Source: a virus
Length of the DNA: 21,198 bases
Direction: 5' to 3' (one strand)
IMG/VR virus record: IMGVR_UViG_3300023501_000066
Coordinates: 1-21,198 of that record
A program made the translations under genes and the position numbers. The notes under the pieces are model-generated. The model was not told the origin of the DNA. It saw nothing but the letters and a program-made list of their open reading frames with translations, and ran no database searches. Each line of letters begins with the position of its first letter. The stretch's first letter is position 1. Positions 4,047 to 11,099 of this stretch are shown here, piece after piece.

Positions 4047-4812
4047 ATAATAATTCTCCTAGTTTACTTAATACTTCTCCTGGTTTACCTCTGTTCATAT
4101 TAACATTTGTAATTCCACCGTCATTATAATCTTTTCTACCCCTACTTCCATCATAGCTACCGAAAGCACCTTCTCCTCCAGATTTAGAAGTATCAAAACC
4201 ACCTCCGCCTCCACTATTATTACTAGTAGTTTCTGCAGCTAGTTTTTTTTTAATTTCAGCTAGTTCAAAGTCACCTATTTGTTTTTTAGTTTTTTCAATC
4301 ATTTCAAAAGTTTTACTATTTGGATTTTTATAACCTCCCAATCTATTTAAATTTTTATTTAATTGTCCAAGGTAATCATTAGTTCCAAAACCAGATATAG
4401 CATTTTGACCAGATAGTACTGAATCTCCAGTATATTTATTTGAGTTTATGTATCCTTGACCTTGTGCATAATTTAGTTGATTTTGAAGATTTGGATTATA
4501 ATTAAAGGAACCTTCTCTTAAAGGATTAGTTGCATAACCTAAAGCTAATGCTCCTCCAAATAAAGGAAGTGCACTTGTTATACCACTACCCCCACCAGTA
4601 AATGCTTTGTTAGTAGCATTACTTAAAAACTTACGCCCTGCACTTTTCATTAAATTGTTAGGAGAAAACTTATTTTTTATTCCATAAATACCTCCACCTG
4701 TATAATCTTCTTCTTGTTCAATTCCCATAGCTTCATAAGCTTTAGCTAAGGCCGCCTGGGTTATTTTTCCTTTGCCATATTGTAAAGCTAAATTCATTAT
4801 AACTTGTTCCAT
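4039..4812 (-). CDS. Putative internal virion protein, Gly/Asn-rich (257 aa)
   Basis: Starts by a TAATG overlap with the nozzle gene. The N-terminal 50 residues are helical and charged (MEQVIMNLALQYGKGKITQA). Around residues 75-95 a Gly-rich, hydrophobic segment (SALPLFGGALALGY) could contact a membrane. The middle is Asn/Tyr/Gln-rich, and the C-terminus is Gly/Ser-rich and disordered, ending KPGEVLSKLGELLYG. There is no catalytic motif. The composition is typical of ejected or internal proteins in short-tailed phages, and its position immediately after the gp10-like gene supports that. This is an inference from composition and context. Confidence 0.55.
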   Translation of the reverse strand: MEQVIMNLALQYGKGKITQAALAKAYEAMGIEQEEDYTGGGIYGIKNKFSPNNLMKSAGRKFLSNATNKAFTGGGSGITSALPLFGGALALGYATNPLREGSFNYNPNLQNQLNYAQGQGYINSNKYTGDSVLSGQNAISGFGTNDYLGQLNKNLNRLGGYKNPNSKTFEMIEKTKKQIGDFELAEIKKKLAAETTSNNSGGGGGFDTSKSGGEGAFGSYDGSRGRKDYNDGGITNVNMNRGKPGEVLSKLGELLYG

Positions 4813-6998
4813 TATCTTCTTCCTCCTGAGTGTACATCTAATCTAAATGTACCTAGCTTCCAGTTACTACTTATAGCCGTATTAGATATAGTTAAAGCAA
4901 TTTGTCTAGCTCTTGCTCTAGTATCAATAAAATTAGTAGTAGGTGTTGAAGTATAAGTTTGTGTAGTAGCCGCCTCATTAGGATAATCTCTAAGATCTAA
5001 TTTAATAATAACGTCTTCACTTTGAGAAACAAAATCTGGAATAATTCTACTGATCCGCATCATAAATTCTCCATCTCCTCTAAATGAAACACCTTCTCTT
5101 TGGTCTTGTGTAATATCATAATCGCCTGAAGTAATTGAAGCAGGTATTGCAGTTGTAGTACTGGCAATTATTTGATCAAATCCAGTTTCGTGTTCAAAAT
5201 AAATTGTAATTCCATCTGTATTACCTACAACATCAAATGAGACATCATCTCCTGCATCATATTGAGTAGCATGAGGTAAACCAAATACTGATGAATCTTT
5301 CCAAGTTGTTCTAGTAAATAAAGAACTAGCATTAGTAGTCCATATAGACGTCTCTTGAGTTGAATCTAAATAGTTATATACAACACATCTATTATTTACA
5401 TTTGATGTAGACGTTGGATAGAACCAGGTAATCTCACCAAACAAATTATTAATTCCTGCATAAACTAATTCATTAGAAGTTGTATTTAAATCATCATAAA
5501 CGTAATCTTCTACTAGACATTGCATAGATTGTAATTGACCTGTGTATCTAAAGAAACCATTATCCGACATCCAATAAGCCGTACCATCAACTTCAACCGC
5601 TGCATTCATTCCTAATAATCCACAGTTAGTTCCAACTTGTTCAAAGGCAAATGTAAAAGGGGTTCCAACAAATCTCATAGTAAACATAGAACTATCTGTC
5701 CAAACATAAAGAGCATTTCTTCCAAGTTTAGCACCAATGATCCGTGATCCATCAGCCAATCTTTGTGAACCCGCACTGTTGATTGCTGTTGGTGCATAGT
5801 CATTAATATTTTCTTGAGACGAGAATCTTATAAACATATCATCTTGTGAAGTTTTATCTCCAATTGTAGTTTCAGTTCCAAAGAATACTAAGTGTCTATC
5901 CGGTGTTGATACTAACATATCACGAGAAGCTGTCGGTGCACCTGCAATAATTGTTGCTCTATTATCTGTTGCATTAGCAGCATTTGCATTCCATTGAAAA
6001 CATTCATTGTTATGAATTAAGGCTATGGCAGTTCCGCCTAAATTGTCCAAGGACCATAGTCCAGGGTCTATTACTGAGTCGGTGTTAGCTGCTGGAGATC
6101 CCCATCCTGTGTAAGATGAAGTGTTAGTTACTGTTGCACTAGTTAAATGAGAAGTAATTGTTGTTCCTCTAACACCTCTAGTAATACCTGTAAGTATTAA
6201 ACCTAAAACTCCAGTATAAGATATTTCTTCAGTACCAATTTGAATATAGTTTGTCCCTGTAGTGGGAAGACCGGTAACACTATTTAAAGTAATTTGTGTA
6301 GCGGATGCATTGTTTCCATTTGTGTCTGCCGCAAGTGCTCCATTTAAAGTAAACGTTAAAGCTCCTGGCTTTATTCCTCCAAATTGAGATATACCCCAAC
6401 CATAAGCTCCCAATTGTTCTGCTGGACCTACGTGATAGTATTGAAAATATTTCACTCCTCCAGAAGCTGTACCCCCGGCTCCTGTTTCTACACTAGCCAT
6501 CGTAATAGTAATGGTTGTAGTTGTAGGTATGGAAGTAACCATGTATTTTTTTCCATCAAAATCTGCTGCTGTGTAATTAGAATTTGTAATAGTAGAAAAG
6601 TCACTAAATAAAATAATGTCTCCTGCTACGAAAGTTTGTGAGCCACCAAAAGTTATTGTAACTGTAGCTGAACCGTTTGTAGTAGTAAAAGCACCTGTTA
6701 AAGTAGTACCTGATGGATTAACTAAAGGATGGATATCATAAAAGATACCTCCCGTATAAGCGTATAAAATTCTGTTAGTGCCAATGATTGAATAATTAAT
6801 AGAAGCATTACTAACCATATGATGTTGTGCTCTTGCAGCGCCGGTTAGTTTGCTTGTCCCTAATTGATTCCAACCACCTATTTTTTCAGGAGTACCATAT
6901 CTAAAACGTACGTTCTCTCCCCCTGTCCATCTATTTTCAGCGCCGGTAGAAGTAATTTGTTTATTGAATCCTGGTACGAAACCTATTTTTTGTAGCAT
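4812..6998 (-). CDS. P22 gp10-like tail nozzle / packaged-DNA stabilisation protein
   Basis: A 728-aa protein with the N-terminus of the family I know as phage DNA-stabilisation protein (P22 gp10, tail hub or nozzle): MLQKIGFVPGFNKQI, then NRWTGGENVRFRYGTPEKIGGW around residues 22-43. The middle is beta-rich and contains RDMLVSTPDRHLVFFGTE and WTDSSMFTMRFVGTPFTF stretches typical of beta-propeller-like nozzle proteins. The end reads WKLGTFRLDVHSGGRR. In P22 this protein sits below the portal and gp4 and closes the tail channel, and the length is comparable or somewhat longer. The gene lies next to the plus-strand oxygenase cassette and probably uses its own promoter at 7081-7109. Its start region is partly duplicated upstream (7045-7059). 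Confidence 0.7.
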   Translation of the reverse strand: MLQKIGFVPGFNKQITSTGAENRWTGGENVRFRYGTPEKIGGWNQLGTSKLTGAARAQHHMVSNASINYSIIGTNRILYAYTGGIFYDIHPLVNPSGTTLTGAFTTTNGSATVTITFGGSQTFVAGDIILFSDFSTITNSNYTAADFDGKKYMVTSIPTTTTITITMASVETGAGGTASGGVKYFQYYHVGPAEQLGAYGWGISQFGGIKPGALTFTLNGALAADTNGNNASATQITLNSVTGLPTTGTNYIQIGTEEISYTGVLGLILTGITRGVRGTTITSHLTSATVTNTSSYTGWGSPAANTDSVIDPGLWSLDNLGGTAIALIHNNECFQWNANAANATDNRATIIAGAPTASRDMLVSTPDRHLVFFGTETTIGDKTSQDDMFIRFSSQENINDYAPTAINSAGSQRLADGSRIIGAKLGRNALYVWTDSSMFTMRFVGTPFTFAFEQVGTNCGLLGMNAAVEVDGTAYWMSDNGFFRYTGQLQSMQCLVEDYVYDDLNTTSNELVYAGINNLFGEITWFYPTSTSNVNNRCVVYNYLDSTQETSIWTTNASSLFTRTTWKDSSVFGLPHATQYDAGDDVSFDVVGNTDGITIYFEHETGFDQIIASTTTAIPASITSGDYDITQDQREGVSFRGDGEFMMRISRIIPDFVSQSEDVIIKLDLRDYPNEAATTQTYTSTPTTNFIDTRARARQIALTISNTAISSNWKLGTFRLDVHSGGRR

Positions 6999-7059
6999 AT
7001 AGTTTTCTTATTATAGTTGTTAATAAAATACGCTTGAAATTTAATTTTTGTAGCATATA
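6987..7059. repeat. 15-base direct repeat at the cassette junction
   Basis: The 15-mer tttttgtagcatata occurs at 6987-7001 and again, exactly, at 7045-7059. The left copy contains the start codon of the nozzle gene (cat = ATG on the minus strand), and the right copy forms part of the -10 region of the plus-strand promoter. The copies are 58 bases apart. This may be a trace of the rearrangement that brought in the oxygenase genes, or a tandem duplication. Confidence 0.8.
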
Positions 7060-7061
7060 AT
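7034..7061 (+). promoter_or_regulatory. Sigma70-type promoter for the oxygenase cassette
   Basis: TTGAAA at 7034-7039 (five of six to consensus) and TATAAT at 7056-7061 (perfect) are separated by 16 bases. Initiation near 7068 would give a leader of about 45 bases before the ATG at 7114. The leader holds an eight-codon mini-ORF (7078-7104). This is the best promoter in the window and faces the oxygenase genes. Confidence 0.75.
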
Positions 7062-7080
7062 GCTTTATATATTAATTATG

Positions 7081-7109
7081 AATATAATGAAAGAGAGAAA
7101 ATAACTCAA
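7081..7109 (-). promoter_or_regulatory. Candidate minus-strand promoter for the nozzle operon
   Basis: On the minus strand TTGAGT (7109-7104, four of six) and TATATT (7086-7081, five of six) are 17 bases apart, pointing towards the nozzle gene at 6998. It would be needed because the oxygenase cassette separates the nozzle and internal-protein genes from the upstream virion operon. In such AT-rich DNA, chance matches are common, so this is moderate evidence only. Confidence 0.5.
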
Positions 7110-7113
7110 GATT

Positions 7114-7662
7114 ATGGATCATTTAGAAGCAATTGTCGAGATAAAAAATATAGTAGCTCCTGATTTTATAGATAGAATTATACCTTTAATAAATCATAAA
7201 GCTAAAAAAAATTTAACAGTTCAAGGGGGGTTGGATAAAGATATAAGAAATGTAAAAGGCTTTAGTTTAAATTATAAAAAATCAAAAATTGAAGATTTTT
7301 ATTGGAATTATATAAAACAAGAAATAGAAAAACTTTATACTTATTACAAAATAAAATTTCCTAAAATGACAAGCTCGAAAATTAATCAAATAGATTTATT
7401 AAAATATTCACCTGGAGGAAAGTATGAAATACACACAGATCATTATACAACGACAGCAAGACATTTAAGTATTATTATGAATTTAAACGATGATTATGAA
7501 GGTGGAGATTTAATTTTTACAGATCAAAAAGAAAAGGAAGTAAAAAGATTAAAACTAAGTACAGGTTCAATTGTTTTTTTTCCAAGTAATTTTATGTATC
7601 CCCACGGTATTCAACCTATTACGAAAGGAACAAGGTATAGTATTGTCGCTTGGCTACAATAG
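7114..7662 (+). CDS. 2-oxoglutarate/Fe(II)-dependent oxygenase, prolyl-hydroxylase type (182 aa)
   Basis: A dioxygenase of the prolyl 4-hydroxylase-like double-stranded beta-helix fold. The full metal and cosubstrate set is visible: H107-T-D109 in KYEIHTDHY, distal H164 in YPHGI, and R174 (ten residues on) in GTRYSI for binding 2-oxoglutarate. LNDDYEGGDLIF (124-135) and GSIVFFPS (151-158) are also typical. Such enzymes use O2, Fe(II) and 2-oxoglutarate to hydroxylate protein side chains, nucleobases or small molecules; the substrate here is unknown. It is the first gene after the 7034-7061 promoter, with a weak ribosome site. The DNA is much richer in A/T than the capsid genes, suggesting separate acquisition. 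Confidence 0.88.
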   Translation: MDHLEAIVEIKNIVAPDFIDRIIPLINHKAKKNLTVQGGLDKDIRNVKGFSLNYKKSKIEDFYWNYIKQEIEKLYTYYKIKFPKMTSSKINQIDLLKYSPGGKYEIHTDHYTTTARHLSIIMNLNDDYEGGDLIFTDQKEKEVKRLKLSTGSIVFFPSNFMYPHGIQPITKGTRYSIVAWLQ

Positions 7663-7683
7663 ATTATAAATTAATAAAAATAA

Positions 7684-8289
7684 ATGATTAGTATATTAAA
7701 TAAAAATAATAAATTAGAAGAAAACAAAAATAGTATTAATATTACTTATCCCAGAACTGTAAATATAATTTTTGGTAATTATGCTTATCCAGAAGTTATA
7801 AATAATTTTTTAATTAATATTAAAAATAATTTAAGTGCTAAACTGGAAAATTATACTCATGTAAAAGGAGGAATGACCGATTGGAATTATTTTGTAGATA
7901 AACCTAATTTTATCAATTTTATAAGTTATTTAATAAATACACATCAAACAACACATCCTGATATATTTCAACATTTCTTACAAAAACAAACTATTGAATC
8001 AGCTTGGGGTAATGAAATAAAAAAAGGGGATAGTTTAAATTACCACGCGCATCGTTCTTTACACGGCCTTTTATATTTAACAAAAGGATGTGATTTAATG
8101 TTACCTGAATTAAATTTAAAAATAACTCCTGAACCAGGAGATTATTATATATTTCCCCCTGAAATACTTCATGGTTTTGATTTATATAATGGGGAAAAAA
8201 ATAGATATAGTTTAATATTTAATATAAGAGAAAAAAATCGTTTTGAATATTCAAAAAAAGTAAAAGAACTCAATGAAAAAAACAGTTAA
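7684..8289 (+). CDS. Putative 2OG-Fe(II) oxygenase with H-x-H motif (201 aa)
   Basis: The C-terminal half matches the pattern of the 2OG-Fe(II) oxygenase family I know as 2OG-FeII_Oxy_5: SAWGNEIKKGDSLNYHAH, then LHGLLYL, then TPEPGDYYIFPPEILHGF and NRYSLIFNI. Candidate metal ligands are H121-A-H123 and H163, with R174 for 2-oxoglutarate. The first pair is H-x-H rather than the classic H-x-D. In this family H-x-H is, as far as I recall, normal, but the metal site needs checking. The N-terminal 90 residues are AT-rich Asn/Lys sequence. The first 60 bases of this region (7681-7740) contain only six G or C. There is no clear Shine-Dalgarno. The gene follows the first oxygenase after 21 bases and overlaps the next by 17 bases. 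Confidence 0.72.
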   Translation: MISILNKNNKLEENKNSINITYPRTVNIIFGNYAYPEVINNFLINIKNNLSAKLENYTHVKGGMTDWNYFVDKPNFINFISYLINTHQTTHPDIFQHFLQKQTIESAWGNEIKKGDSLNYHAHRSLHGLLYLTKGCDLMLPELNLKITPEPGDYYIFPPEILHGFDLYNGEKNRYSLIFNIREKNRFEYSKKVKELNEKNS

Positions 8290-8863
8290 TATAAATAACT
8301 TTATTGGAGTATATGATAATTACATTACAAAAGAAGAATGTAATAGAGCTATTAAATTATATGAAGATCAAAATAAATTTAATAATACTATTAATAGAAT
8401 AGGATTTGAAAAAGCCTCTATTTTACAAAAACAAGATCAACAATTTTTTGCAGCAACTAATAATGTAGATGTATGGTGGGAAATTTTAAAACCCATGATG
8501 TTTAATTTTGATATAGCCTTAAAGCATTATATAGAAAACACTGGAGCAAATGATGCTTATGGAACTCCATTTCATTTTACATCTTTAAAAATTCAAAAAA
8601 CATTACCTACTGAAGGCTATCATATTTGGCATATAGAACACGGGAAAGGTTTTGATAATGAACCTAGAGCTTTTGCTTATTCTATTTATTTAAATGATGT
8701 TGAAGATGGAGGAGAAACAGAATTTCTACATTTTTCAAAAAGAGTAAAACCTAAAACAGGTAGAATAGTTATTTGGCCTGCAAGTTTTCCATATGTTCAT
8801 AGAGGAAATCCACCCTTATCTGGTGAAAAATATATTTTAACTTCTTGGATGTTGGTGAGATGA
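8273..8863 (+). CDS. 2OG-Fe(II) oxygenase with H-x-E motif and Lys in place of Arg (196 aa)
   Basis: Residues 115-195 show the double-stranded beta-helix core: GYHIWHIEHG (115-124), AYSIYLNDVEDGGETEF (135-151), GRIVIWPASFPYVHRGNPP (163-181) and GEKYILTSWMLV. The likely metal ligands are H120-I-E122 (or H117) and H176; K186, ten residues after H176, takes the place of the usual Arg. I recall cyanophage oxygenases with a similar WHxE...GGETEF...HRGNPP...KYI pattern, so the H-x-E and Lys may be family traits and not decay. The start overlaps the previous gene by 17 bases. The end shares ATGA with the next gene. Function is probably hydroxylation of an unknown target. Confidence 0.8.
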   Translation: MKKTVNINNFIGVYDNYITKEECNRAIKLYEDQNKFNNTINRIGFEKASILQKQDQQFFAATNNVDVWWEILKPMMFNFDIALKHYIENTGANDAYGTPFHFTSLKIQKTLPTEGYHIWHIEHGKGFDNEPRAFAYSIYLNDVEDGGETEFLHFSKRVKPKTGRIVIWPASFPYVHRGNPPLSGEKYILTSWMLVR

Positions 8864-9378
8864 TTAAAATTATTAATGATTTTTTTAATGAAAATCAGTT
8901 AAAATTAATTCAAAATTTTACTTTAACTAAAGCTGCCTACACCCCTTGTTTTTTTGACAATGCAATAGAAAAAAATAAAGAATCTCATTATGGCAATAGA
9001 TTCTATATAAATACAGATAATGAACTTAAAAATTTGTTTATAAAACAAGCTGAATTAAAATTCAATTTAAAAAATTTAAAAATTGATAATGCATCAGGAA
9101 TTGATCAAAGAAACTTAGATCATTTTAAACCACATGTGGATACTGTCTCTGGTATATTAAATATATTAATAATGATATCAGGGCCCACTTCAGTTACGAA
9201 TGGAACTGTATTTTATTCTAAAAATAAAGAGGAAGTAGAATTAGATATCCATGTTGGATTTAGAGAAAATAGGGCTATAATGTTTCCATCAGATTGGTGG
9301 CATTCACAACACGCAAGTAAAGTACCTAACTTAAAAAGATATACAGCTACTTTATTTATAAAAGATTATGAAGAATAA
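8860..9378 (+). CDS. Putative 2OG-Fe(II) oxygenase (172 aa)
   Basis: The reading frame could begin at 8845, but the ATG at 8860 overlaps the upstream stop as ATGA and is preceded directly by GGTGAG, so I chose it. From this start, DHFKPHVDTVSG gives H92-V-D94, FPSDWWHSQHAS gives distal H148 (H151 is an alternative), and LKRYTATLFI gives R160, the full H-x-D...H...R set of 2OG-Fe(II) oxygenases. NILIMISGP and RAIMFPSDWWH fit the beta-helix strands. The pattern resembles oxygenases of phage genomes that bind a peptide or nucleotide, but no subfamily is recognised. It is last in the cassette and overlaps the convergent fibre-associated gene by 13 bases at their 3' ends. Confidence 0.75.
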   Translation: MIKIINDFFNENQLKLIQNFTLTKAAYTPCFFDNAIEKNKESHYGNRFYINTDNELKNLFIKQAELKFNLKNLKIDNASGIDQRNLDHFKPHVDTVSGILNILIMISGPTSVTNGTVFYSKNKEEVELDIHVGFRENRAIMFPSDWWHSQHASKVPNLKRYTATLFIKDYEE

Positions 9379-9740
9379 GAAGTAGGTCTTACACCTAATC
9401 TTATAATTTTTTCAGCTTCAGTTTCACTCTCAACAATGTCAGCATCCCAATCGGATTGTAATTGAGCTAAGTGTGTTGAATCCCATCTACTAGAAAATTG
9501 ACTAATGTCCCCAATGTTTGCATCAGCAAATGATGAATGAGGTGTATCATTTCTATATTCTACTTCATCAGAAGTAGTTGAAGTTCCATGTTGAATAGCC
9601 CAAATATTAGAGAATTTAGAATCAGACCAAAAAGAATCATCCGATATATTATATCCAATACCTTCTGAAGCACCTTCATCATGGTTTTTAATTACTATTT
9701 TATCATCAAATACTATTGTCCAATTTGCGTTTGTTGCCAT
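9366..9740 (-). CDS. Conserved tail-fibre-associated hypothetical protein (124 aa)
   Basis: Begins MATNANWTIVFDDKIVIKN and includes FSNIWAIQHGTSTTSDEVEY, DANIGDISQF and WDSTHLAQLQSDWD, ending EAEKIIRLGVRPTSYSS. I recall this layout from uncharacterised proteins next to collar/fibre genes of marine phages. A good AGGAG precedes the ATG by six bases, and the collar-domain gene ends eight bases upstream. Possible roles are a fibre chaperone or small fibre component; nothing in the sequence decides. Its last codons run into the convergent oxygenase cassette, where no terminator is evident, so the opposing transcripts may overlap. Confidence 0.6.
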   Translation of the reverse strand: MATNANWTIVFDDKIVIKNHDEGASEGIGYNISDDSFWSDSKFSNIWAIQHGTSTTSDEVEYRNDTPHSSFADANIGDISQFSSRWDSTHLAQLQSDWDADIVESETEAEKIIRLGVRPTSYSS

Positions 9741-9748
9741 TTTTTCTC

Positions 9749-10327
9749 CTAAGTTTTAATAATATAAATTAATGTTAAATAAGGTTGAAGAACCGAAGTT
9801 GCATCACCAGAAAAAGTTGCACTCATATTATGAGAGTGACCTGATCCTGAACCAGTGCTTGCCACAACACTGTTGTTAAGACTGGCGAATGCAGGACCAT
9901 CTGTTTTTACCGAATTTTGATATCCACCAGGATTACCTAGCGTTTGCAATGCGTGAACGTGAGAAGAAAGTTGTGCTGTCGATAAAGTTGCATTTGCTGT
10001 TGAACCACCTACGTTTCCTGTTGCTGATACAGTGTCTGCTCCACCTGTTGAAGCTAAAGCTTTAGTTCCAGATTTACCAACTGCAATATTATCTTGTAAA
10101 TCAGGTGTATTAAAAGTAGTGGATCCGTCCCCTATACCATAAGTTGTGCTTATGATTGCAAATAAAGCAGAGTAAGTTGTTCTTGAAACTGCTACACCAT
10201 CACATTCTAAAAAACCTGATGGTAATACTGCTGCTGACCAAGGTAAAATTGTACCTGTAGCTGTGCCTTCTATACCTGTAAGGTTTGCTCCATCAAAATC
10301 ATATTTAGTTGCTTCGTAATTTGCCAT
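9749..10327 (-). CDS. Tail collar-domain protein (tail fibre tip)
   Basis: Residues 24-90 are a clear phage tail collar domain: GTILPWSAAVLPSGFLECDG, then SRTTYSALFAIISTTYG, GDGSTTFNTPDL and NIAVGKSG. The C-terminus reads SGHSHNMSATFSGDATSVLQ and ends PYLTLIYIIKT, as in many short fibre/tip proteins. Two H-x-H motifs are present (H123-V-H125 in SSHVHAL and H164-S-H166 in SGHSHN). In T4 fibre proteins similar H-x-H motifs bind metal ions. Expected role: trimeric distal fibre part that contacts the host surface. It is one base after the stop of the 256-aa fibre gene, whose last codons contain the GGAG ribosome site. Confidence 0.85.
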   Translation of the reverse strand: MANYEATKYDFDGANLTGIEGTATGTILPWSAAVLPSGFLECDGVAVSRTTYSALFAIISTTYGIGDGSTTFNTPDLQDNIAVGKSGTKALASTGGADTVSATGNVGGSTANATLSTAQLSSHVHALQTLGNPGGYQNSVKTDGPAFASLNNSVVASTGSGSGHSHNMSATFSGDATSVLQPYLTLIYIIKT

Positions 10328-10328
10328 A

Positions 10329-11099
10329 TTATTTCTCCGTGTAAGTCCATCCTGTTGTAGCGTCTCCAGAATATACTAATCCAAAAGCTGCACCTTGTGT
10401 ATTAATTACAAGATCCGCTGCTGCGTTAGCTATATTAGTAGAGTTTCTACCAACAGTCAATGCGTTAGTGTTAAAATCATAACCTTGATCTATGAAATCT
10501 ACTTGATCCCCTGTAGCAGGTGATGCGGGTAAAGTTATTGTGAAAGCTGCACCATTTGTATTTGCTAAAATTCTATCGCCAGCTACTGCTGTATAAGTAC
10601 CTGTTTTAACAACCCAAGCTGAAGGACCTGTATATGAAGAAGTACCAAATGGAACTTCGTAAACACCTGTGTTAGTTGCAACACCATCAACATAAATTAT
10701 TTTCCAAGCTTTATTATCCGTTGCAAAAGTGATCGTGGCCCCCGAACCAGATACAGCTTTTAATTGTACTGTGTAAGCACCTGATGTACTATTTTTTATA
10801 AAATAAAAAGTCTCTGTAAGAAGGGGTAGGGTTACAATTTTATTTCCTGTAATTGTTTCCGGAGAAACTGCTCCTAAAATAATAACTCTATTTTGAGCGG
10901 CACCTGTTACAGCTCCATTATCTATTGCTAGAGGAGTTGTGTTAGCTCCAGTGCCACCAGCATTTAAAGTTTGAATTTTAAATCCACCTAATAGTTGTTC
11001 AGCTAAAGTTAAATTTGCGTTAGTTTTTGTTCCCCAAGTACCAGCATTTTCGCCAGTGGCCATTAACTCTAGGCCGAGATCCGTGTATGTTGATGCCAT
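10329..11099 (-). CDS. Tail fibre protein (256 aa)
   Basis: Starts MASTYTDLGLELMATGENAG, then TWGTKTNANLTLAEQLLGG, an N-terminal pattern common in marine phage fibres, where it likely attaches to the tail. The rest is Thr/Ala/Gly-rich beta sequence. A module around residues 163-215 (TYTAVAGDRILANTN, then FTITLPASPATGDQVDFID, then NALTVGRN) resembles one in the 135-aa protein at 15409-15816. A good AGGAG site precedes the ATG. The collar protein follows immediately, suggesting the two form one fibre. No transmembrane segment or enzyme motif. Confidence 0.75.
   Translation of the reverse strand: MASTYTDLGLELMATGENAGTWGTKTNANLTLAEQLLGGFKIQTLNAGGTGANTTPLAIDNGAVTGAAQNRVIILGAVSPETITGNKIVTLPLLTETFYFIKNSTSGAYTVQLKAVSGSGATITFATDNKAWKIIYVDGVATNTGVYEVPFGTSSYTGPSAWVVKTGTYTAVAGDRILANTNGAAFTITLPASPATGDQVDFIDQGYDFNTNALTVGRNSTNIANAAADLVINTQGAAFGLVYSGDATTGWTYTEK

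Follow-up and report, generated by a model that had tools for sequence, protein, structure and literature searches.

The window analysed here is the entire 21,198-base virus record IMGVR_UViG_3300023501_000066. Its minus-strand structural module comprises genes for GroES, the capsid, several tail proteins, a repeat protein, a tail fibre, a collar-domain protein and a small protein named f1, followed, beyond an interruption, by the nozzle and further genes. The interruption is the subject of this report. It consists of four packed plus-strand genes, g1 to g4, at positions 7114–9378, while every other long gene-like open reading frame (ORF) is on the minus strand. A first-pass annotation had described these genes as a cassette of four 2-oxoglutarate (2OG)-Fe(II) oxygenases inverted between the tail-fibre genes and the nozzle, and the present analysis supports that description.

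Gene g1 (7114..7662, plus strand, 182 aa) encodes a 2OG-Fe(II) oxygenase of family PF13640, as indicated by Pfam, PHROG and relatives in the PDB. The product of g2 (7684..8289, plus strand, 201 aa) is a putative 2OG-Fe(II) oxygenase of the PF13759 type with an HxH...H pattern (Pfam, PHROG and alignment), and that of g3 (8273..8863, plus strand, 196 aa) is a prolyl-4-hydroxylase-like 2OG oxygenase (PF13640) with an HxE...H...K pattern (Pfam, PHROG and PDB relatives). Gene g4 (8860..9378, plus strand, 172 aa) encodes a diverged 2OG oxygenase with an HxD...H...R pattern, assigned by its fold model and site residues; the TTG at 8845 given by the mechanical ORF list is a less likely start than 8860. 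The tight packing and AT-richness reported earlier were both confirmed: g2 and g3 share 17 bases, g3 and g4 overlap in an ATGA, and the GC content of the cassette is roughly 25% (range 23–29%) against roughly 37% (range about 33–42%) in the surroundings.

On one side the slot is bordered by the gene for a nozzle or stabilization-like virion protein (4812..6998, minus strand; phrog_3287, E=2.6e-92, and tblastn to pelagiphages). On the other side lies f1 (9366..9740, minus strand), a small conserved protein recognised by homologue alignment and position and regarded below as a candidate substrate or tip partner; it is convergent to g4 and its 3′ end shares 13 bases with it. It follows the gene for a tail collar-domain protein (PF07484; 9749..10327, minus strand; Pfam and PHROG), another candidate substrate, upstream of which a putative tail fibre protein is encoded (10329..11099, minus strand; phrog_31104, phrog_972 and others).

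The search with hidden Markov models (HMMs) that the annotation had proposed placed g1 (PF13640, E=1e-17, 65.3 bits), g2 (PF13759, E=4.6e-6, 27.4 bits) and g3 (PF13640, E=2.7e-11, 44.7 bits) above the Pfam cut-offs for 2OG-Fe(II) oxygenases, which are 27 bits in each case. The g4 product scored under that cut-off (PF13640, E=1.5e-4, 23.1 bits) and its sequence-profile search of the PDB returned spurious matches only, so it is classified by fold and metal site and not as a PF13640 member. Structure prediction, also proposed earlier, yielded for g4 a double-stranded beta-helix oxygenase fold with a mean predicted local distance difference test score (pLDDT) of 91.8, built from a 31-sequence alignment. 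The model had 273 PDB matches at E<=0.001, and the 50 listed were all 2OG oxygenases, headed by PKHD/PiuC oxygenases and the HIF prolyl hydroxylase PHD2 (E down to 1.1e-6). Residues H92, D94, H148 and R160 are invariant in the 31 homologues.

In the family alignments, the sequence patterns of the site are the canonical HxD...H...R in g1 and g4, HxE...H...K in g3 and HxH...H...R in g2. As a prediction from sequence and modelling, the assignment of four 2OG-type oxygenases stands, two of them with non-canonical sites. Among solved structures, prolyl or peptidyl hydroxylases make up most of the nearest relatives of g1 and g3, compared by sequence, and of g4, compared by fold; g3 resembles bacterial prolyl-4-hydroxylase (P4H) structures in sequence with E=1.1e-6. 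These three proteins have their domain or fold in common with prolyl-4-hydroxylases, PKHD hydroxylases and HIF PHD2 and, judged by sequence pattern, most residues of the predicted metal and 2OG site; g3 departs from them with HxE for HxD and Lys for Arg. Median ratios of nonsynonymous to synonymous polymorphism (pN/pS) against close relatives are 0.16–0.31 for the cassette genes. This indicates purifying selection, and the possibility of decaying or random ORFs was rejected on these grounds.

Cassettes in the same slot of related phages

By gene content the window is related to the HTVC023P-type pelagiphages. Compared with the isolate HTVC027P, which infects HTCC1062, protein identity is 82% for the capsid, 64% for GroES, 44% for the nozzle and 69% for the collar protein, and the gene order is shared; none of the genes in the 21,198 bases was recognised as PolA. 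The IMG/VR database was scanned with g1–g4, the nozzle and f1 as queries, each scan contributing its best 80 loci, which gave about 400 loci in all; some contigs were reached via several queries and were de-duplicated for that reason. HMMs for g1–g4, their flanking genes and a further 23 cassette families served to label all ORFs, the families beyond g1–g4 being our own HMM clusters with assignment by best score.

A complete interval from the tip genes (collar/f1) to the nozzle was found in 255 loci, 166 of them distinct. Gene g3 is present in all 166 distinct cassettes. The number of oxygenase-type genes varies from one to nine (four in 57 cassettes, three in 52), and 126 gene orders occur. 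Almost all recognised cassette genes (697 of 711) are inverted relative to the structural strand, and the mean GC content of the cassettes is 26.1% against 36.9% for the nozzle gene, the cassette being lower in 166 of 166. The search for the same four-gene order in viromes recovered g1-g2-g3-g4 outside the window in one contig sampled twice (L084/L323), to which the three genes used as queries are 100% identical, and in a diverged independent contig (L175). This recurrence, the 166 distinct cassettes and the isolate genome rule out an assembly artefact.

The ends of the cassette are more constant than its contents. The divergent intergenic region between the nozzle start and g1 (6999..7113, plus strand) is 115 bp long, the usual length in relatives being ~44–47 bp. 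The boundary sequence TTTTTGTAGCATATA is present there twice, near 6988–7002 and 7047–7061, and this duplication has lengthened the leader region; the repeated stretch at the nozzle start (6985–7061) looks like a recombination scar. A conserved 44-bp leader or promoter-like element, CaTatAnTanntTATATAtTAnTTtTatAgAgAATGAAAG (7054..7097, plus strand), was defined by an alignment of 112 distinct relatives and a position weight matrix (PWM). In these relatives it precedes the first cassette gene, whichever gene that is, and the spacing from TATAT to TGAAAG is 22 in 87 of the 112. The PWM has a single match in the window (score 46) and a single match in the HTVC027P genome (score 49), at the equivalent place. 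At the opposite end the last cassette gene, whatever its identity, usually overlaps or abuts the tip gene convergently; no convincing terminator was found at the convergent 3′ junction of g4 and f1. Constant ends enclosing exchanged contents are as expected of a plug-in cassette. The earlier statement that the genes have their own promoter is thus upheld as far as the conserved element is concerned, but a generic sigma-70 scan lent it nothing, as promoter-like sites were no more numerous than in shuffled sequences. Either the cassette or the nozzle gene, or both, could be under the control of this element.

Enzymes of other kinds occur in the cassettes of relatives. Proteins of the tryptophan-halogenase family (PF04820, E=1.8e-89 and 5e-37) are encoded within inverted cassettes of pelagiphage-like contigs at L255:3322-4743 and L276:2239-3387 (minus strand). 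A carbamoyltransferase (PF02543 and PF16861, E=8e-56) is split over two adjacent ORFs, for the N and C parts, at L276:3384-4792 and L315:4503-5934 (minus strand). Some cassettes also encode cupin/JmjC-type proteins, a methyltransferase, or a probable sulfotransferase (PF03567 at best E=1.6e-4, with motifs resembling a 3′-phosphoadenosine-5′-phosphosulfate site noted by eye). A 439-aa ORF at L411:734-2053 (plus strand), judged by eye to be an oxygenase start fused to a truncated halogenase, appears to be a recombination product within a cassette.

One accessory family, oB (e.g., L277:4858-5382, minus strand), deserves separate mention. It is the commonest partner gene, and in relatives g1 is usually paired with it. 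Genes g1 and oB adjoin, in that order, in 69 of the 166 cassettes, and a single profile, phrog_3531, joins both, oB matching its positions 13–183 and g1 191–360. The family belongs to PHROG 2954, labelled 'ferrochelatase', and PMC11561400 names phrog2954 in discussing a ferrochelatase partner of the oxygenases. However, no Pfam family matches oB, in which an oxygenase-like HxD...H...R pattern is conserved; a profile search of the PDB gave a TET-like dioxygenase match that was non-significant (E=0.3). Judging by sequence, the 'ferrochelatase' auxiliary metabolic gene of pelagiphage papers (PMC9599517, PMC11561400) may therefore be a mislabelled oxygenase-like protein.

Association of g3 with one tail-tip type

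The presence of g3 coincides with a particular type of tail tip. With g3 as query, the collar/f1 genes lie convergently just downstream in 78 of the best 80 loci, the remaining two being on contigs too short to reach that point. With f1 as query, an inverted cassette including g3 was found in 70 of 70 loci with at least 1.5 kb beyond the tip genes. The nozzle query gave 42 loci with at least 3 kb upstream: the collar/f1 tip, g3 and the inversion occur together in nine of nine, whereas g3 is absent from all 33 loci lacking the collar/f1 tip (Fisher p=2e-9). The f1 and nozzle queries were not aimed at oxygenases, and their agreement speaks against a sampling bias. Other oxygenase genes are carried at this place, on the structural strand, by 32 of the 33 loci without the collar/f1 tip; HTVC023P represents this collinear form and HTVC027P the inverted one. 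In three loci with a different tip type (L270, L271 and L321), the region before the nozzle encodes glycine-rich fibre-like proteins and then collinear, different oxygenases of the oF, oD/oO, oH and oB types.

Protein identity to HTVC027P rises from the fibre (47%) to the collar (69%), f1 (62%), g3 (87%) and g2 (73%) and falls again at the nozzle (44%). The tip genes and the cassette are thus more similar than the flanks on both sides, as if they had travelled together. Collar, f1, g3 and g2 had no match in HTVC023P or 023Pt_psg01. Among 56 contigs, distances in cassette composition correlate with those of the fibre (r=0.22), the collar (0.20) and f1 (0.15; p<=0.004), and the correlation with the equally adjacent nozzle (0.07) is not significant.

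Possible function of the cassette

The first-pass annotation had suggested that the enzymes modify one or more targets in successive steps, with fibre side chains as one candidate. The idea of successive steps gained no support: composition reshuffles almost freely, and 126 orders in 166 cassettes make a fixed four-step pathway unlikely. An obligatory core, g3, with exchangeable add-ons fits better. Fibre side chains are a candidate target, favoured by the location and by the perfect co-occurrence with one tail-tip type. It seems possible, and this is the explanation that we tentatively prefer, that g1–g4 represent one form of an interchangeable set of enzyme genes between collar/f1 and nozzle of an HTVC023P-related phage, and that these enzymes hydroxylate the tail-tip protein inherited with them and modify it further.

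The cassette enzymes would be made during infection, and the oxygenases would hydroxylate C–H bonds of newly made tail-tip proteins (collar, f1 and perhaps the fibre). The peptidyl prolyl-4-hydroxylase-like g3 would perform an obligatory modification of the tip protein that is always inherited with it, and the accessory oxygenases would add lineage-specific decoration. In relatives, the halogenase, carbamoyltransferase, sulfotransferase or methyltransferase would add to this decoration, possibly on the new hydroxyl groups, which could be handles for carbamoyl or sulfo groups. Swaps of accessory genes would then change the surface chemistry of the tip, and thus host binding, with the amino-acid sequence of the tip unchanged. 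The broader proposal of combinatorial post-translational tailoring, in which one to nine oxygenases, with or without halogenase, carbamoyl-, sulfo- and methyltransferases, surround an obligatory g3 in a fixed slot and diversify tail-tip chemistry, is more doubtful. If it is true, host binding is altered via enzyme content instead of tip sequence, and should the tail tip be the substrate, the system would amount to an oxidative, combinatorial decoration of a phage adhesin.

Several observations weigh against tailoring of the tail tip. The correlations of composition with the tip genes are small. On gene trees, the turnover of accessory genes is near-saturated on every tree and nearly as fast on tip as on nozzle trees; the link between accessory set and tip sequence is therefore loose, and only g3 is tied to the presence of the tip. 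The suggestion that accessory genes track the phylogeny of the tip was dropped for lack of support from the trees, the weak distance correlations being all that remains of it. The model of f1 is confident (pLDDT 86), yet it has no fold match in the PDB, where a profile search also found no match; the membership of f1 in the tip thus rests on its position. For halogenases and carbamoyltransferases, small molecules or sugars are the more usual substrates. Finally, more distant g3 homologues in cyanomyophages are on the structural strand and have capsid genes on one side and gp3/UvsY on the other, with no fibre-tip genes next to them.

The main rival, which we consider unlikely, is that the cassette alters the host surface (a receptor protein, lipid or glycan), blocking re-infection by related phages or tuning adsorption, its place by the tip genes keeping receptor specificity and modification together. 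The linkage to tail-tip genes suits this explanation, a glycosyltransferase is encoded a few genes away in HTVC027P and HTVC023P, and surface glycans are conceivable substrates of the carbamoyl-, sulfo- and methyltransferases of relatives. Serotype-conversion and tail-fibre modification loci adjoin tailspike genes and so link modification enzymes to receptor-binding genes, which makes them a possible analogy; they differ in encoding glycosyl- or acetyltransferases that act on the host O-antigen, usually in temperate phages, whereas here oxygenases dominate. A superinfection exclusion would bring less gain to HTVC027P, described as lytic (PMC12753301), and the peptidyl or prolyl hydroxylases that are the nearest solved relatives of g1, g3 and g4 also argue against a surface target.

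Metabolic, small-molecule and DNA roles appear less likely still. Published work treats such 2OG oxygenases as host-metabolism genes (PMC3037559, PMC9599517, PMC12753301, PMC11561400), and infection by HTVC027P induces host iron genes (PMC12753301). It is nevertheless improbable that the oxygenases are auxiliary metabolic enzymes that regulate the host's status in 2-oxoglutarate, iron or nitrogen, or process nutrients, and occupy this slot by chance. Such a role needs neither a lock to one tail-tip type and slot (9/9 versus 0/33) nor the continual reshuffling of some 20 sequence families in it, and the 'ferrochelatase' partner behind the haem idea is the oxygenase-like oB, which lacks a Pfam match. 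The combination of oxygenases with halogenase, carbamoyl-, sulfo- and methyltransferases in relatives resembles the tailoring enzymes of peptide natural products. Nevertheless, it is very unlikely that the cassette makes or tailors a secondary metabolite such as a small peptide, to be set free at lysis or directed against competitors or host defences: the genes are packed so closely that no place for a precursor-peptide gene is obvious, and g3 is tied to the tail-tip genes. Modification of phage DNA bases, or protection of DNA, has the least to recommend it. A DNA endonuclease V label is attached to some of the PHROG matches, bases are among the possible substrates of 2OG enzymes, and the TET-like match of oB, very weak as it is, points the same way; however, most proteins under the endonuclease V label have, where any, oxygenase Pfam domains, the cassette lies by tail genes and not replication genes, and peptidyl hydroxylases are closer relatives.

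Relation to described phages and systems

Multiple 2OG genes in HTVC023P-type pelagiphages are already known (PMC9599517, PMC12753301, PMC3037559). HTVC023P and HTVC027P are of a related lineage and carry, in the same region, several non-orthologous 2OG genes near tail genes, and in HTVC027P the genes g2-g3-oH (gp72–gp74, with g3 as gp73) lie inverted in the equivalent slot, two of the three being annotated only as hypothetical proteins; the fibre, collar and f1 genes of this isolate are gp69–gp71. The first-pass view that single 2OG oxygenases are common in marine phages but a run of four is not known was therefore only partly right: HTVC027P has three in a row, and the available text of PMC9599517 (2022) describes a clustering, 'although not adjacent', of eight 2OG families in genomes of the HTVC023P type. 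There the genes are nearby but non-adjacent, paired with ferrochelatases and treated as auxiliary metabolism, and in the same text the inverted cassette, the lock of g3 to the tip, the leader and the halogenase, carbamoyl-, sulfo- and methyltransferase partners are not described. In the open-access papers searched, a mosaic cassette that is inverted, built around g3, locked to one tip type and headed by a conserved leader was not found described, and this architecture appears not to have been published before.

Pelagiphages, the viruses of the ocean bacterium SAR11, rank with the most abundant marine viruses, and few auxiliary genes are commoner in them than those for 2OG oxygenases. A constant g3, its lock to one tip type and the conserved element before the first gene make the role of the cassette a testable question, as the isolate HTVC027P, which grows on HTCC1062, has a three-oxygenase version. 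Like the enzymes proposed here, diversity-generating retroelements diversify tail tips; the difference is that the diversity would come from enzyme content and not from tip sequence, and no reverse transcriptase was noticed. Outside pelagiphages, almost all DNA matches were to T4-like cyanophages, which are alike in having many 2OG genes per genome, with prnA and a carbamoyltransferase listed too (PMC3037559).

A related but mixed architecture is found in L413, a contig of a Pelagibacteraceae genome record (g3 identity 66%), where, by eye, genes of the oA, oO and g4 types are collinear with the nozzle and g2-g3 are inverted (L413:2676-5609). SAR11 chromosomes encode a distant g3 homologue (about 31% identity; L436:4420-5585 and L452:4437-5609) that is fused to or adjoins tetratricopeptide (TPR)-like repeats. 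Collagen P4H likewise combines a hydroxylase with TPR-like repeats. As to the tip proteins of the window, f1 ends in a C-terminal tail G.RPTSY, of which PTS is invariant. The collar protein (9749–10327) contains HxH motifs (SHVH and GHSHNM) close to its C-terminus, which might provide an iron link with the adjoining Fe(II) enzymes; these motifs are similar to the metal-binding His motifs that occur in known phage fibre tips.

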